This document shows, piece after piece, positions 2,750-30,190 of a stretch of 33,114 nucleotides of DNA (position 1 is its first letter; each line of letters opens with the position of its first letter). The notes beneath the pieces were generated by a model. It did not search any database. It had not been told where the DNA came from and saw nothing but the letters and a program-made list of their open reading frames with translations. The DNA comes from an uncultured Clostridia bacterium (GTDB lineage Bacteria > Bacillota > Clostridia > TANB77 > CAG-508): positions 1 to 33,114 of the forward strand of contig CANRBK010000006.1 of assembly GCA_947628845.1 (NCBI GenBank), given 5' to 3'. Position numbers and translations under genes: made by a program.

Positions 2750-3952
2750 GTGAAAATTTTAGTATTAAACTCAGGTAGTTCATCATTAAAATATCAAGTA
2801 ATTGATATGGACACAGAAGAAATGTTAGTAAAAGGATACTTTGAAAGAATAGGACAACAAAATTCTTTTTTAACACACAAAGTAAATGGAGAAAAAAGAA
2901 AATTTGAAAAATATGTTGAAAATCATCAACAAGCTCTTGAATTTATTTTTACTAGATTAATAAATGACCATTATGGTGTAATTAAAAGCTTAGATGAACT
3001 TGGTGGAATTGGGCATAGAGTTGTTCAAGGAGGAGAAAAATATTCTAAATCTGTACTTATAACAGATGAGGTAATTGAAGAAATAAAGAAATGTGCAGAT
3101 TTAGCACCATTACATAATCCAGCTTGCGTCTTAGGAATTGAAGCATGCAAAAAAATAGCACCAAAAATACCTATGGTAGCAGTTTTTGATACAGCATTTC
3201 ATCAAACTATACCAAAAGAAAGATATATATATCCTATAGATTATGAGTATTATAAAAAATATGGTATAAGAAAATATGGAGCACATGGAACATCACATCA
3301 ATATGTTTCTCAAAGAGTTGCAGAAATTATGAATAAAGATATAAAAGATTTAAAAATTGTAAATTGCCATTTAGGACAAGGGGCAAGTGTATGTGCTATA
3401 CAAAACGGAGAATCAGTAGAAACAAGTATGGGATTGACACCATTAGGAGGAATTCCAATGGGAACAAGAAGTGGAGACTTAGATCCATCTGTAATTACTT
3501 ATTTAATGAAAAAAGAAAATTTATCAGCTCAAGAAATGGAAGATATATTAAATAAGAAATCAGGAGTATTTGGAATATCAAGAGTTTCAGTTGATTTTAG
3601 AGACATAGAAAATGAAGCACTTGCAGGAGGAATACATGCACAACTGGCATTAGATGTATATCATTATTTAACTGCATCTTATGTAGCAAGATGTGCTGTT
3701 GCAATGGGAGGAATAGATGTGCTTACATTTACAGCAGGTGTTGGCGAAAAAGGCCCTATTTCTAGAAAAGCAATATGTGATCAACTTGAATTTTTTGGAG
3801 TAAAGATAGATGATGAAAAAAATAATGTAAGAGGAGAGGAAAGAGAAATTTCAACTCCGGATTCTAAAGTGAAAATTTTTGTAATTCCAACAAATGAAGA
3901 ATTAATGATAGCAAGAGAAACTTTACAAATAGTAAATAAAGGAGAAGAATAA
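2750..3952 (+). CDS. ackA: acetate kinase (first copy)
   Basis: Makes ATP and acetate from acetyl phosphate. The start is GTG, chosen because AAAGGGGG (2735-2742) is 7 bases upstream and the protein begins with the family's MKILVLNSGSSSLKYQ. 400 residues is the normal length. Visible active-site regions: Asn7 and the SSS loop, Arg90 in GHRVVQGG, VFDTAFHQT, YGAHGTSH, CHLGQGASV, GTRSGDLDP, and the terminal NEELMIA with the conserved Glu. Oddities: His-to-Gln in the usual GHRVVHGG and Phe-to-Ala in the usual YGFHGTSH. The segment GIS.VS.DFRDIE is canonical, unlike the second copy. Two bases separate it from the next ack gene. Confidence 0.93.
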   Translation: MKILVLNSGSSSLKYQVIDMDTEEMLVKGYFERIGQQNSFLTHKVNGEKRKFEKYVENHQQALEFIFTRLINDHYGVIKSLDELGGIGHRVVQGGEKYSKSVLITDEVIEEIKKCADLAPLHNPACVLGIEACKKIAPKIPMVAVFDTAFHQTIPKERYIYPIDYEYYKKYGIRKYGAHGTSHQYVSQRVAEIMNKDIKDLKIVNCHLGQGASVCAIQNGESVETSMGLTPLGGIPMGTRSGDLDPSVITYLMKKENLSAQEMEDILNKKSGVFGISRVSVDFRDIENEALAGGIHAQLALDVYHYLTASYVARCAVAMGGIDVLTFTAGVGEKGPISRKAICDQLEFFGVKIDDEKNNVRGEEREISTPDSKVKIFVIPTNEELMIARETLQIVNKGEE

Positions 3953-3954
3953 TA

Positions 3955-5145
3955 ATGAAAATATTAGTATTAAATTGTGGTAGTTCATCACTAAAATATC
4001 AATTGATAAATATGGATACAGAAGAAGTAATGGCTTCTGGAAAATATGAAAGAATAGGAGAAGCAGAAGCATTTATAACACATAAAGCAAATGGTAAAAA
4101 AATAGAAATTAAAAATCCAGCCTATAATCATTCTGAAGCAATAGATTTTACTTTAAAACAATTGACCAATCCTGAATATAAGGTAATAGATAGTTTAGAT
4201 GAAATAAATGCAATAGGACATAGATTAGTACATGGTGGCGAAAAGATTTCAGAATCTGTAGTAATTGACGATAGTGTTGAAGAAGTTTTAAAAGAATATA
4301 CAGATTTAGCACCATTACATAACCCAGCTTGTATATTAGGAATTGAAGCATGCAAAGAAGTTATGCCAGGAAAGCCAATGGTTGGAGTATTTGATACAGC
4401 TTTCCATCAAACAATGGAAAAAGATAAATTTATATATGCAATTCCTTATGAATATTATAAAAAATATGGAGTTAGAAAATATGGTTTCCATGGAACATCC
4501 CATCAATTTGTTTCTCAAAGACTTGCAGAAATTGAAAATATTTCTTTAGAAGGAACAAAAGTTGTTACATGTCATTTAGGACAAGGAGCAAGTATATGTG
4601 CAATTAAAGATGGAAAGTCAGTAGATACAAGTATGGGATTAACACCTTTAGGAGGACTTCCAATGGTAACTAGAAGTGGAGATTTAGATCCATCAGTAGT
4701 TACATATATTATGAAAAAAGAAAATTTAACACCAGAGCAAATGGAAGAAATGCTAAATAAAAAATCAGGACTTTCAGCTATGGCAAATTTAGATCCAGAT
4801 TTTAGAGTTATTGAAGAAAAATCTAATGAAGGCGATGAATTAGCAAAATTAGCTATTGAAAACTTCAATTATACAATAGCAAGTTATATTGCAAAATATG
4901 TTGTTGCAATGAAAGGAATAGATTATATAATTTTTACAGGAGGAATTGGAGAAAATCAAATCAATATTCGTAAAGGGATTTGCGAAAAACTAGCTTTTAT
5001 GGGAGTTGACTTAGATATTGATGCTAATAATATGAAAGGGGAAGAAAAAGTTATTTCAAAACCTAATTCAAAAATTAAAGTTTATGTAATTCCAACAAAT
5101 GAGGAATTAATGATTGCAAAAGAAACTTTAAGATTGATAAAATAA
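3955..5145 (+). CDS. ackA: acetate kinase (second, tandem copy)
   Basis: A second full-length (396-residue) acetokinase placed head to tail with the first; its SD (GGAG, 3941-3944) lies inside the end of the first copy. It keeps MKILVLNCGSSSLKYQ, GHRLVHGGEK, VFDTAFHQT, YGFHGTSHQ, CHLGQGASI, TRSGDLDP and NEELMIA. It differs from the first copy at several motif positions: LPMVTRSGD instead of the usual MGTRSGD, and GLSAMANLDPDFR in the segment that is GIS.VS.DFRD elsewhere. The copies are clearly diverged, so this is not a recent duplication. Different acyl-phosphate preference is possible but not readable from sequence. No terminator is evident before the next gene, 46 bases on. Confidence 0.92.
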   Translation: MKILVLNCGSSSLKYQLINMDTEEVMASGKYERIGEAEAFITHKANGKKIEIKNPAYNHSEAIDFTLKQLTNPEYKVIDSLDEINAIGHRLVHGGEKISESVVIDDSVEEVLKEYTDLAPLHNPACILGIEACKEVMPGKPMVGVFDTAFHQTMEKDKFIYAIPYEYYKKYGVRKYGFHGTSHQFVSQRLAEIENISLEGTKVVTCHLGQGASICAIKDGKSVDTSMGLTPLGGLPMVTRSGDLDPSVVTYIMKKENLTPEQMEEMLNKKSGLSAMANLDPDFRVIEEKSNEGDELAKLAIENFNYTIASYIAKYVVAMKGIDYIIFTGGIGENQINIRKGICEKLAFMGVDLDIDANNMKGEEKVISKPNSKIKVYVIPTNEELMIAKETLRLIK

Positions 5146-25580: not shown

Positions 25581-25615
25581 TAAATTGTAATAAAAAGTAT
25601 GGAAGGAGAAAATTG

Positions 25616-27760
25616 ATGAAAGTAAATAAATTTTTAGCTCTTATTATTTTAGCAATATTAATATCAAATATTTTATTAGGAATTACATATGAAATAAAAG
25701 CTGAAGAAATAATAGAAAATGAAATAATAGAGCAATCTCAAAATAATAAAACAGAAAGCAAGCAAGATACAGAAAATGTAATAGAAAATAATATAATCGA
25801 AAATGATGTAATAGAAAATGATGTAATCGAAAATGAAAGTATTGAAGATAATGTAGTAGAAGATGAAGTTACAGAAAATAATGTGATAGATAATTCAATT
25901 GATAATGAAGTAATAGATAATATAAACAATGATGAAATAATGCCATTATCAGCACCATCAGAAGAATTAGGAGTTACATATAAAACACATGTACAAGATA
26001 TAGGATGGCAAGATTGGAAAAATGATGGAGAAACTGCAGGTACATCTGGTAAGTATTTAAGATTAGAAGCAATTAATATTAAGTTAAAGGGAGATTTATC
26101 TAATTTAAATATAAAATATCAAACTCATGTAGAAAGTATAGGATGGCAAGATTGGAAAACAAATGGTGAAATGTCAGGTACATCTGGCAAGTATTTAAGA
26201 TTAGAAGCTATAAAAATTGAACTAGACTCATCTGAAGATTATTCAATTAGGTATAGGGTACATGTACAAGATATAGGATGGCAAGACTGGAAAACAGATG
26301 GTGAGATTGCTGGAACAGAAGGAAGATACTTAAGATTAGAAGCAATAGAAATAAAGATTGTTCCTAAAGTAAAGAAAGCAGTAATTAATATAGATACACC
26401 TAGAAATGGTGAATCACTTTATAATCCAAATATCATAAATGTATCTGGTTGGAAAATGGCAAATATTTCTAATACAAAAATAAAAGTTTATATAGATGAA
26501 AGTACAACACCTATTGATGACAATTTAATAACATACATAAAAAGAGATGATGTAATAAAAGCTGTAAAAGGATATGGTAATGAGATACAAAATTCAAATC
26601 CTGGTTTTTATTTTGCTATTAATGCAACAGAATTAGCAAGTGGAACACATAAAATACGTTTTGTAATATATACAAGTAATAATGAAATGCTTCAAGAAGT
26701 AACAACAAAAATAATTTTGGATAGAAATTTACATGTTCAATATAAATCTCATGTACAAGATATAGGATGGCAAGAACATGTTATAGATGGAAAAACTTCA
26801 GGAACTGAAGGAAGGCATTTAAGGATAGAAGCAACTGATATTAGATTAGTAAGTGCACCTTCAAATGCAAAAATAGTTTATAGAGCTCATATACAAGATA
26901 TAGGATGGCAAGATTGGAAAGAAAATGGGCAAGTAGCAGGAACACAAGGACAAGGCTTAAGAATGGAAGCATTACAAATAAAGTTAGAAAATTTTGATGA
27001 ATATACAATTGAATATCAAGTTCATGTAGAAGATAAAGGATGGACAGATTGGTATATTGATGGAGAAACAGCAGGTACAGTTGGGCAAGGAAAAAGAATA
27101 GAGGCTATGAGAATTAGACTAGTTCCTAAATATAAAAGACAATATAATGGAATAGATGTTAGTCAATTTAATGGAAGTATCAACTGGGGATTTGTTAAAA
27201 GATCTGGAATAGACTTTTCATTTATAAGAGTTGGTATTAGAGGATATGGTTCAGCAGGAAATTTTAGAGAAGATTCAAACTATAGAGCTAATATACAAGC
27301 AGCAAAACAAGCAGGAGTTCCAGTAGGAGTTTACTTTGTAACACAGGCTACAACAGAGGCTGAAGCTATAGAAGAAGCAAATTGGGTTATTGAAAGAGTG
27401 GAACCTTATGGAGTAGAGTATCCTATTGCAATAGATATAGAATCTCCAGGACTAGAAAGACCAACAGATATTCCAAGAACACAAAATTTAGACAAAAATA
27501 CTCGTACACAGCTAGCAAAAGTATTTTGCCAAACAATTCAAAATAATGGGTATACACCAATTATATATACAAATCTTAATTGGGCTAATAATTATTTAAA
27601 CATGTCACAATTAACAGAATTTGATACATGGATTGCACAATATAGAAGTGCAGGAACTACATATACTGGTGAATATTCAATATGGCAATATACAAGTTCA
27701 GGAACAGTAAACGGAATATTAGGATGTGTAGATTTAGATGCGTGCTATAAAAAATACTAA
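25616..27760 (+). CDS. secreted ChW-repeat GH25 lysozyme
   Basis: Peptidoglycan hydrolase (N-acetylmuramidase). A signal peptide (about 1-29, hydrophobic core LALIILAILISNILLGI) is followed by an acidic low-complexity spacer (residues about 30-110, repeated IENDV units). Then come three ChW repeats, an Ig-like domain with SGWKMA, and three more ChW repeats. The last 205 residues are a GH25 domain: YNGIDVSQFNG with Asp514, FIRVGIRGYGS, YPIAIDIESPG with the catalytic Asp607 and Glu609, and YSIWQYTSSG. ATG 25616 is preferred to TTG 25613, since GGAAGGAG (25601-25608) is 7 bases away. The ChW-Ig-ChW plan is the same as in the M14 protein at 6225, so the two enzymes probably bind the same wall ligand. 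Confidence 0.95.
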   Translation: MKVNKFLALIILAILISNILLGITYEIKAEEIIENEIIEQSQNNKTESKQDTENVIENNIIENDVIENDVIENESIEDNVVEDEVTENNVIDNSIDNEVIDNINNDEIMPLSAPSEELGVTYKTHVQDIGWQDWKNDGETAGTSGKYLRLEAINIKLKGDLSNLNIKYQTHVESIGWQDWKTNGEMSGTSGKYLRLEAIKIELDSSEDYSIRYRVHVQDIGWQDWKTDGEIAGTEGRYLRLEAIEIKIVPKVKKAVINIDTPRNGESLYNPNIINVSGWKMANISNTKIKVYIDESTTPIDDNLITYIKRDDVIKAVKGYGNEIQNSNPGFYFAINATELASGTHKIRFVIYTSNNEMLQEVTTKIILDRNLHVQYKSHVQDIGWQEHVIDGKTSGTEGRHLRIEATDIRLVSAPSNAKIVYRAHIQDIGWQDWKENGQVAGTQGQGLRMEALQIKLENFDEYTIEYQVHVEDKGWTDWYIDGETAGTVGQGKRIEAMRIRLVPKYKRQYNGIDVSQFNGSINWGFVKRSGIDFSFIRVGIRGYGSAGNFREDSNYRANIQAAKQAGVPVGVYFVTQATTEAEAIEEANWVIERVEPYGVEYPIAIDIESPGLERPTDIPRTQNLDKNTRTQLAKVFCQTIQNNGYTPIIYTNLNWANNYLNMSQLTEFDTWIAQYRSAGTTYTGEYSIWQYTSSGTVNGILGCVDLDACYKKY
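25771..25930 (+). repeat. degenerate 15-bp repeats encoding IENDV-type units
   Basis: Imperfect GAAAATGATGTAAT-type units encode IENxVIENxVIEN and then decay to DNSIDNEVID. The region forms an acidic, probably unstructured spacer between signal peptide and first ChW repeat of the lysozyme. It could expand or contract in 15-bp steps without breaking the frame. Confidence 0.65.
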
Positions 27761-28240: not shown

Positions 28241-29182
28241 ATGGAAAAGAAAAAAGTAACTCTAGTTATACCAATGTATTACGAAGAAAAGGTAGCAAAT
28301 GAATGTTACAAAAGAGTAAAAGAAAATTTATCAAAATTAGAAAATTATGAACATGAAATTATATTTGTAAATGATGGTAGTACAGATAGAACATTGGAGA
28401 TATTAGAACAAATAGCAAAAGAAGATAAAAATGTAAAAATAATATCATTTTCAAGAAATTTTGGGCATCAAGCTGCAGTTACTGCTGGACTTCAGTATAT
28501 AACAGGTGATGCAATAGTAATTATGGATGCTGACCTTCAAGATCCTCCTGAATTAATTCCAGATATGTTAAAACTCTGGGAAGAAGGAAATGAAGTTATA
28601 TATGGAAAAAGAAAGTCAAGAGAAGGAGAAAGTGTATTTAAACTATTTACAGCAAAAATGTTTTATAAAACTTTAAATGCATTATCGGATGTAGAAATTC
28701 CAAAGGATACAGGAGATTTTAGACTAGTTGATAGAAAAGTAGTTGATACTATCAATTCTTTGCCAGAACATAATAAATTTTTAAGGGGGCTTTTTAGTTG
28801 GGTTGGATATAAGCAAATACCTTTTGAATATGAAAGGAAAGAAAGATTTGCAGGAGAAACAAAATATCCATTAAAGAAAATGTTGAAATTAGCATCTGAT
28901 GGAATTATAAGTTTTTCTACAAAACCTTTAAAATTAGTTGGGGCTTTAGGAATTGTATCAATAATTATTTCAATTTTATTATTGGTATATGCATTAGTAT
29001 CTTTTACATTTAAATTAAATAATTTGTCTGCTGGATGGACATCTATTATGGTTGCTATTACCTTTTTTGCTGGAATACAACTGATTTCTATATGGGTTAT
29101 TGCTGAATATGTTGGAAGAATTTACGATGAAAGTAAACAAAGACCTCAATATATAGTTGATAAAAAAATAAATATAGAATAA
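28241..29182 (+). CDS. GtrB-like polyprenyl-phosphate sugar synthase (GT2)
   Basis: 313 residues. The GT-A domain starts KVTLVIPMYYEEKVANECYK, with FVNDGSTDRTLEIL, SFSRNFGHQAAVTAGL, the donor/metal site VIMDADLQDPPELI and DTGDFRLVDRKVVD. RKERFAGETKYPLKKM leads into two C-terminal membrane helices (about 232-255 and 265-290). This is the GtrB/DPMS type with C-terminal anchors, which makes polyprenyl-phosphate glucose or a similar donor. It is paired with GtrA just upstream. It differs from the shorter, soluble DPM-like protein at 24425, so the cluster may prepare two different lipid-linked sugars. Confidence 0.92.
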   Translation: MEKKKVTLVIPMYYEEKVANECYKRVKENLSKLENYEHEIIFVNDGSTDRTLEILEQIAKEDKNVKIISFSRNFGHQAAVTAGLQYITGDAIVIMDADLQDPPELIPDMLKLWEEGNEVIYGKRKSREGESVFKLFTAKMFYKTLNALSDVEIPKDTGDFRLVDRKVVDTINSLPEHNKFLRGLFSWVGYKQIPFEYERKERFAGETKYPLKKMLKLASDGIISFSTKPLKLVGALGIVSIIISILLLVYALVSFTFKLNNLSAGWTSIMVAITFFAGIQLISIWVIAEYVGRIYDESKQRPQYIVDKKINIE

Positions 29183-29207
29183 AAATACTTGTACTTTTTT
29201 ATATTTA

Positions 29208-29315
29208 ATGATATTATATGGAAGACCCAGAAGGGACGTTTACTTGTGGGTCATTTTAATAAATTAAATAATATCATATGAAAAAAGACCCACAAGTAAA
29301 CGTCCCTTTTGGGTC
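29208..29315. repeat. long interleaved inverted repeats between gtrB-like gene and rfbD
   Basis: A 29-nt arm (29224-29252) is the reverse complement of 29287-29315 except for one position (a G-T pair in RNA). Each arm also begins GACCCA and ends GGGTC, so each can fold alone. A second pair, ATGATATTAT (29208-29217) and ATAATATCAT (29268-29277), is perfectly complementary and interleaved with the first (order A-B-A'-B'). No T tract follows on either strand, so it is not a plain terminator. It ends 4 bases before the AGGAG of rfbD. It could be a miniature repeat element or an RNA structure controlling rfbD. Confidence 0.75.
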
Positions 29316-29329
29316 AAAAGGAGTAAAAA

Positions 29330-30190
29330 ATGAAAATATTGATAACAGGTGCAAACGGAATGCTTGCAAAAGAAGTAAGAGAAAAATTTGAACAAGGAAA
29401 TGAACTTACAATTACAGATGTTGCAGAATTAGATATAACAGATGAAAAAGCAGTTTTTGATTTTGTAAAAAATTTAAAACCAGAATATATAATAAATTGT
29501 GCAGCATTTACTGCAGTTGATAAAGCTGAAGATTGTTATGAATTAGCAGATAAAATAAATGGAGATGGTCCAACAAATTTAGCAAAAGCTGCAAAAAATG
29601 TAGGAGCTAAATTAGTACATATATCAACAGACTATGTATTTGGTGGAGATTTGGATTTATCTAAAGATTATAAAGAAGACGACGAAAAAACACCAGTAAC
29701 AGTATATGGTATTACTAAATTACATGGTGAACAAGGAATAGAAAAAAATATGGATGAATACTACATATTTAGAACAGCGTGGTTATATGGAGTTGGAGGA
29801 AACAATTTTGTAAAAACAATGACAAAATTAGGTTCAACAAGAGATGAAATAAATGTAGTATCAGATCAACATGGAAGTCCGACTTATGCAAAAGACTTAA
29901 CAGAAATAATATATCAAGCAATACAAAAGAAAATACCATATGGAGTATATCATGCAACAAATCAAGGATATACAACATGGTATGAATTTACAAAAGAAAT
30001 ATTAGAAAAACAAGGAATACAATGTAAAGTAAATCCTGTAACAACAGAAGAATATATAGAAATGATGAAAATTACTCAAGCTAAAAGACCATTCAATTCA
30101 CAATTATCAAAAAATAAATTACTAGAACAAGGAATCGAAATACCAGAGTGGAAAGATGGACTAAAAAGATATTTTGAAGAAAGTTGTTAA
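29330..30190 (+). CDS. rfbD: dTDP-4-dehydrorhamnose reductase
   Basis: Last step of dTDP-L-rhamnose synthesis: reduction of dTDP-4-keto-L-rhamnose with NAD(P)H. The N-terminal Rossmann motif is ITGANGMLAKEV. CAAFTAVDKAEDCYELADKI is the family signature, followed by VHISTDYVFGG and the catalytic YGITK (Tyr126, Lys130). RTAWLYGVGGNNFVKTM and SDQHGSPTYAKDL are also typical. 286 residues is normal. AAAAGGAG lies directly behind the inverted repeat at 29208-29315. rfbA follows 16 bases after the stop. Confidence 0.96.
   Translation: MKILITGANGMLAKEVREKFEQGNELTITDVAELDITDEKAVFDFVKNLKPEYIINCAAFTAVDKAEDCYELADKINGDGPTNLAKAAKNVGAKLVHISTDYVFGGDLDLSKDYKEDDEKTPVTVYGITKLHGEQGIEKNMDEYYIFRTAWLYGVGGNNFVKTMTKLGSTRDEINVVSDQHGSPTYAKDLTEIIYQAIQKKIPYGVYHATNQGYTTWYEFTKEILEKQGIQCKVNPVTTEEYIEMMKITQAKRPFNSQLSKNKLLEQGIEIPEWKDGLKRYFEESC

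Follow-up and report, generated by a model that had tools for sequence, protein, structure and literature searches.

A dispersed inverted-repeat doublet in the rmlD leader of an uncultured Clostridia bacterium, most likely spread by a radA-adjacent Y1 transposase

The doublet upstream of rmlD

The window, meaning the whole stretch of 33,114 nucleotides analysed here, carries rmlD behind two inward-facing copies of a short repeat unit, hereafter the doublet. The features of this interval are as follows.

29189-29217, + strand: promoter-like motif of rmlD (TTGTAC, 17 nt, TATTAT, with TG before the latter), conserved in relatives; its -10 part is the B arm described below
29223-29253, + strand: left repeat unit, with its GGGACG loop on the + strand (unit search; pattern match at 29226-29250 with 0 mismatches)
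29254-29285, no strand: AT-rich spacer of 32 nt between the two units, containing the B' arm (29268-29277)
29286-29316, - strand: right repeat unit, in the opposite orientation to the left one (unit search; pattern match at 29289-29313 with 0 mismatches)
29317-29323, + strand: Shine-Dalgarno sequence AAAGGAG of rmlD, immediately after the end of the doublet at 29316
29330-30190, + strand: rmlD, dTDP-4-dehydrorhamnose reductase (TIGR01214, 285.5 bits against a cutoff of 224; PF04321)

Just upstream of the rhamnose genes, at 25613-27760, lies a 715-residue protein with a GH25 lysozyme domain and six ChW repeats.

The near-perfect inverted pair reported in the initial annotation was confirmed by a repeat finder, which places 34-nt arms at 29224-29257 and 29282-29315 with 94% complementarity. 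The predicted folds of the doublet region lie far beyond those of shuffled sequences, both as RNA (z = -10.6) and as DNA (z = -9.9), with none of 200 shuffles as good in either case. The downstream arm does end beside the Shine-Dalgarno sequence, as had been noted. A second inverted pair, B (29208-29217) and B' (29268-29277), is also present, with 10 nt and 100% complementarity. As evidence for structure this match is weak, as one of at least 10 nt between the 60-nt left flank and the spacer arose in 223 of 3000 mononucleotide shuffles. Thus, the interlocked pair first described exists, but its role as a structural partner does not hold up, given its reach by chance and the position of B in the promoter -10. 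Within the doublet (29253-29300), the minus strand carries two promoter-like matches, which is chance level (three in the region against 1.7 expected).

The position of a G+C-rich hairpin between two co-directional genes, the upstream glycosyltransferase gene and rmlD, raises the question of whether the doublet is an intrinsic terminator or attenuator. The + strand terminator scan of the region gave no call and no T tract follows the hairpin, in agreement with the initial annotation. Moreover, the conserved terminator of this interval lies further upstream, where it overlaps the -35 element in 27 of the 43 other genomes described below (pattern match), and its left arm is missing from the window. 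A terminator function for the doublet is thus very improbable.

The rmlD upstream region in related genomes

The regions upstream of rmlD were read in 43 other genomes, comprising 15 and 29 loci with one genome in both sets. The set of 15 came from a search matching 20 of 36 genomes, with loci of other families, second copies and weak matches left out, and the set of 29 from 30 loci among the matches listed in a search that matched 199 of 210 genomes. A TTGTAC-like element followed after 16-18 nt by a TATTAT- or TATGAT-like element precedes rmlD in 37 of the 43 (pattern match). The consensus promoter scan did not list the rmlD promoter, and the evidence for it is conservation rather than consensus. 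From the -10 element, the rmlD transcript would start at about 29224, in the first bases of the doublet. In most relatives, the region corresponding to 29180-29217 holds a terminator hairpin (GTACAAG...CTTGTAC and a T-run) whose right arm is shared with the rmlD -35 element, and paired changes occur in it, such as GTGCAAG/CTTGCAC in G017.

Neither the repeat unit nor its loop motif was found in the rmlD leader of any of the 43 genomes. Among them, the leaders of the sister species G207, which has the same repeat family, and of G072 are short and lack the unit, and G072 has the same upstream gene as the window. Because the G207 leader lacks the unit, the doublet would either have entered the rmlD site after the split from G207 or have been lost in G207. 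A clean insertion and one accompanied by loss of the old leader are equally likely, since the flanking leader of the relatives can be aligned only loosely and no closer strain supplies the exact empty joint. At one locus of G016 (L094), the interval from the glycosyltransferase gene to rmlD holds a long inverted repeat of another kind, perhaps also a mobile palindrome.

Copies of the unit in the genome

The window's own genome (G000; 1.306 Mb in 87 contigs) contains many copies of the repeat. BLAST of the 130-base region returned 70 matches, many of which are a single place hit on both strands. With up to two mismatches allowed, a 25-base pattern of the unit matched 24 and 25 times on the two strands, 49 in all, against 0 for the reversed control, and a looser search of the fetched stretches found 51 units in 31 clusters. 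The consensus of the unit is TG(A/T)CCCAnnnGGGACGTTTACYTGTGGG(A/T)CA. The copies lie in intergenic gaps at many unrelated genes, often with a stop codon on one side and the following Shine-Dalgarno sequence on the other.

Adjacent units are inward-facing in 17 of 20 pairs, the others being two ++ and one --. In 16 of the 17 doublets, those with units of equal length, arms are more alike within a doublet (92.9% identity) than between doublets (85.4%; 0 of 5000 permutations), as would be expected if doublets are copied or corrected as a unit. The spacers of the other doublets are AT-rich, 1-44 nt in length, and different, none containing the spacer sequence of the rmlD doublet. More elaborate arrangements are also seen: one doublet carries an extra half unit on each side in mirror symmetry (L060:1429-1541; G000:C7:23928-24040), and at the start of contig C8 a unit is followed by short direct repeats, ACGCCCTCTTGGGACA, as if the assembly were broken by an array (L062:1-90). 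At several loci, L065:1375-1439 among them, the gap to the upstream gene is negative (-3 to -11 nt), the unit extending over the final codons or stop of that gene; such units may supply a new stop codon.

Many clusters in this genome abut AAAGGAG. Within limits chosen after looking, a start codon follows at a distance of 10-27 nt in 19 of 28 (null 0.197, p = 4e-8); three of the 31 clusters were dropped from this test (one contig end and two transposase flanks), and the background comprised 57 intervals with 3691 bases. However, 16 of the 28 are also within 10 nt of a stop, and most tandem gaps are short. The start-codon placement was not repeated in other species (5 of 29, null 0.128; 3 of 21, null 0.177; 9 of 19, null 0.44), and 4 of 11 lie before a start codon in G056, where the background, a single interval, is useless; another 39 elements were excluded as being inside an ORF, without a neighbour or with N in the interval. 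Copies in these species lean toward the stop side, as REPs in general are described to do in the available text of PMC3733652. Given the stop proximity, the short gaps and the failed replication, targeting to Shine-Dalgarno sequences was dropped as an explanation. Two of the six divergent intervals holding copies in G000 rest on ORFs of 51-56 amino acids, which may be false.

The doublet as a leader RNA

The initial annotation also proposed an RNA switch controlling rhamnose supply, in which A-A' and B-B' pairing would alternate in a conserved cis-acting element or attenuator. The fold is very stable and lies beside the Shine-Dalgarno sequence, as such a device might. However, since B lies upstream of the predicted transcript start, the A and B pairings could not compete in RNA made from the rmlD promoter, and B-B' is within chance. 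Scanned against Rfam, the window yields no family at or above the gathering score. The related suggestion that folding hides or exposes the ribosome-binding site is not borne out by the predicted leader fold, in which the Shine-Dalgarno sequence has a mean unpaired probability of 0.99. The genome-wide search for further copies and the reading of the relatives' leaders, which had been put forward as checks, both argue against a switch: there are about fifty copies at unrelated genes, and all 43 other leaders lack the unit. As a conserved device the switch is refuted, and we give it next to no weight. Because about fifty copies are scattered through the genome and the doublet stands before rmlD in one species only, the feature is better read as a mobile repeat.

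Co-option of a mobile palindrome in this species is a further reading: forming the 5' portion of the rmlD mRNA, it would alter stability or translation and be retained for that effect. The predicted start in the first bases of the doublet, after a conserved promoter motif, is consistent with this. So is the predicted fold, which with 60 coding bases reaches -59.7 kcal/mol against a mean of -7.2 in 28 relatives and leaves the Shine-Dalgarno sequence more open than the relatives' mean of 0.71 (n = 28). On the other hand, the arrangement is found in a single species, and copies at many unrelated genes are what would be expected without selection for a role. Co-option is unlikely, though considerably less so than a switch or a terminator. 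Some influence on how rmlD is expressed is plausible; slower mRNA decay owing to a 5' hairpin would be one guess.

The radA-adjacent transposase and related genomes

G000 has one gene for a Y1/HUH transposase (Y1_Tnp), located next to radA. The protein has 257-271 amino acids with NHVH and YIHQNP motifs (L068), and its best NCBIfam match, the REP-associated tyrosine transposase, falls below the cutoff (68 against 80 bits). A C-terminal extension of about 130 amino acids is present. No significant helix-turn-helix match was found in this protein; in two of the four transposases scanned, HTH_23 (E 0.0066) and HTH_11 (E 0.0011) were matched, all below the Pfam cutoffs. A sequence search of solved structures with the transposase gave no match at E 0.01. 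Two inward-facing units, at 1716 and 2732 of L068, flank the transposase ORF (1902-2717). In effect, the doublet in the window has the layout of the transposase element without the gene.

Among 210 genomes of the genus, the unit occurs in number only in G000 (49) and G207 (60). In G207, a transposase with 61% identity occupies the radA site and is flanked by the same unit as in G000, while G212 has an equally similar transposase whose repeat shares the outer stem and differs in its interior. Site sharing between G207 and G000 was assessed for 15 clusters in 13 G207 loci. The sites aligning with element sites of G000 are the two transposase flanks, L337, L340 (one side only), L357:2064, L359 and L361. 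In addition, L332 aligns with positions 2751-5141 of the window, where unit searches found nothing, and the remaining seven clusters have no match among the G000 element loci. This mix of common and unshared sites fits slow movement since the two genomes split.

Transposases and repeats across the genus

A Y1_Tnp match was found in 51 of 58 sampled genomes of the genus. Sixty transposase loci were taken from this list, mainly those with long open frames, and 59 contain an ORF matching the transposase of G000, the exception being L125. The motif residues (H at 149 and 151, Y at 210, N at 214 and P at 215 of the alignment) are present in 60 of 60 sequences. Seven genomes of the genus also carry short, high-scoring IS200-type Y1 transposases (L106-L112), distinct from the RAYT-like ones of 260 amino acids.

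Most of the 60 loci show inward inverted repeats, but L140, L154, L160, L163, L165, L168, L174, L176, L179 and L184 gave nothing beyond short or unconvincing matches. Where clear, the repeats form hairpins whose loop is of the GGGGAC type and whose stem varies by locus. For the 37 loci whose repeats were judged clear, by our own choice, repeat similarity tracks transposase identity (Mantel r 0.71, 0 of 5000 permutations). Of 58 genomes, 43 contain the loop pattern TTGGGGACRKKYC, with as many as 109 occurrences, against 0-2 for the control; it is found 0 times in G000 because the loop there continues GTTTAC.

The radA gene and upstream neighbours of the G000 transposase recur at 20 of 63 loci (its own, those of G207 and G212, and 17 of the 60), and because of this recurrence the transposase branch is taken to be one kept at a single chromosomal site. 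The stems at this site differ, with TGTCCCA in G000, TGTGAAA in G010, TGTCGCA in G018 and TGTCC in G049. The latter three were searched for in seven genomes. Exact or one-mismatch matches to the G010 stem occur in G010, with 47 matches in all, plus a single one-mismatch match in G018; those to the G018 stem occur in G018 only, and those to the G049 stem, among the matches listed, in G049 only. Matches with two mismatches cross genomes, and for the G010 pattern they lie mainly in G007 and G049, where they are TGTCCAATT, the own version of each.

These observations suggest, at somewhat under even odds, that the radA-site transposase re-specifies its palindrome in each species, with the GGGGAC loop fixed, the stem changing and the whole dispersed population following the stem of its genome. 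If true, the genus would hold a naturally occurring set of enzyme-repeat recognition pairs, their recognition of the stem drifting while the loop stays fixed. A changing stem with a constant loop at one orthologous gene is not described in the available portions of PMC3733652, PMC6006769, PMC3116915 and PMC8049555.

Origin and significance of the rmlD copy

The feature in front of rmlD is most likely a non-autonomous mobile palindrome of two inward 31-nt hairpin units, spread by the radA-adjacent Y1/HUH transposase of the RAYT/TIRYT kind (probability about 0.88). The miniature mobile repeat that the initial annotation offered beside a switch is thereby favoured, by the many dispersed copies, the inverted doublets, the units flanking one transposase gene and the empty orthologous sites. 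The doublet in effect corresponds to the transposase element minus its gene, with the same units in the same orientation. The single radA-side transposase would move it, probably as single-stranded DNA, as its relatives do. One copy lies in the rmlD leader of this species, between promoter and Shine-Dalgarno sequence, and the rmlD mRNA would now begin within a few bases of a hairpin while the ribosome site stays free.

The false lead of a rhamnose switch is in this way replaced by a mobile repeat that comes with a transposase, dispersed copies, sites empty in relatives and numerous versions specific to individual species. Lying behind a conserved promoter motif and ahead of the Shine-Dalgarno sequence, the rmlD copy would represent a clear case of a palindrome turned mRNA leader. 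More broadly, dozens of transposase-repeat pairs are available within the genus, with the stem as their main difference, making repeat recognition by a domesticated Y1 transposase directly testable.

Comparison with known systems

In REPIN-RAYT systems, as defined in the text available of Bertels and Rainey (2011; PMC3116915), inverted doublets surround a spacer and the arms are more conserved than the spacer, as is the case here. Both features of that arrangement are present, namely dispersed inverted doublets and repeats flanking the RAYT gene of the same genome. There is likewise one transposase gene per repeat family, and the gene is maintained vertically, RAYTs being described as single-copy and vertically inherited in the part available of PMC8049555. 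Unlike the REPs of these systems, the units have no GTAG/GTGG tag at the hairpin foot, and the part constant across the genus is the loop rather than the foot; no GT[AG]G at the foot, the canonical mark of GTAG REPs, is shared in the unit consensus or in the flanks of the 17 doublets. With CGTC REPs, the units share the CGTC sequence and the predominance of inverted doublets. However, as far as the text available of PMC3733652 goes, CGTC REPs bear this tag where their 8-9 bp stem ends, form a loop of 4-5 nt and lack an associated transposase, whereas here CGTC is internal and a transposase is flanked. Membership in that group was rejected, as the features differ.

TIRYTs are RAYT-like transposases with flanking inverted repeats, many with the motif GGGGWSAS, and some of their families are dispersed as dimers and clusters (Di Nocera, 2013; PMC3733652, text available in part). 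The present system resembles them in its RAYT-like HUH transposase of about 260 amino acids, its flanking inverted repeats that are not GTAG REPs, its conserved motif containing GGGG and its HUH and Y---NP motifs (NHVH and YIHQNP). The sequence GGGGACAG found in several species fits GGGGWSAS, while GGGGACGT or nGGGACGT of G000 fits it incompletely. It differs from the TIRYT/TIR system, as far as that text extends, in that the conserved motif is the hairpin loop, the stem varies by species and the dispersed families are large, in what appears to be one Clostridia genus. In the available part of PMC6006769, 20 of 26 TIRYTs are placed in subclass 2.1, which has an HTH-like C-terminal extension and near whose genes no REP-like sequences were found; here, by contrast, repeats flank the transposase. 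From its sequence, the transposase is a probable member of subclass 2.1. Taken together, the system would work like a REPIN-RAYT pair, while its parts appear to fit the TIRYT kind best.
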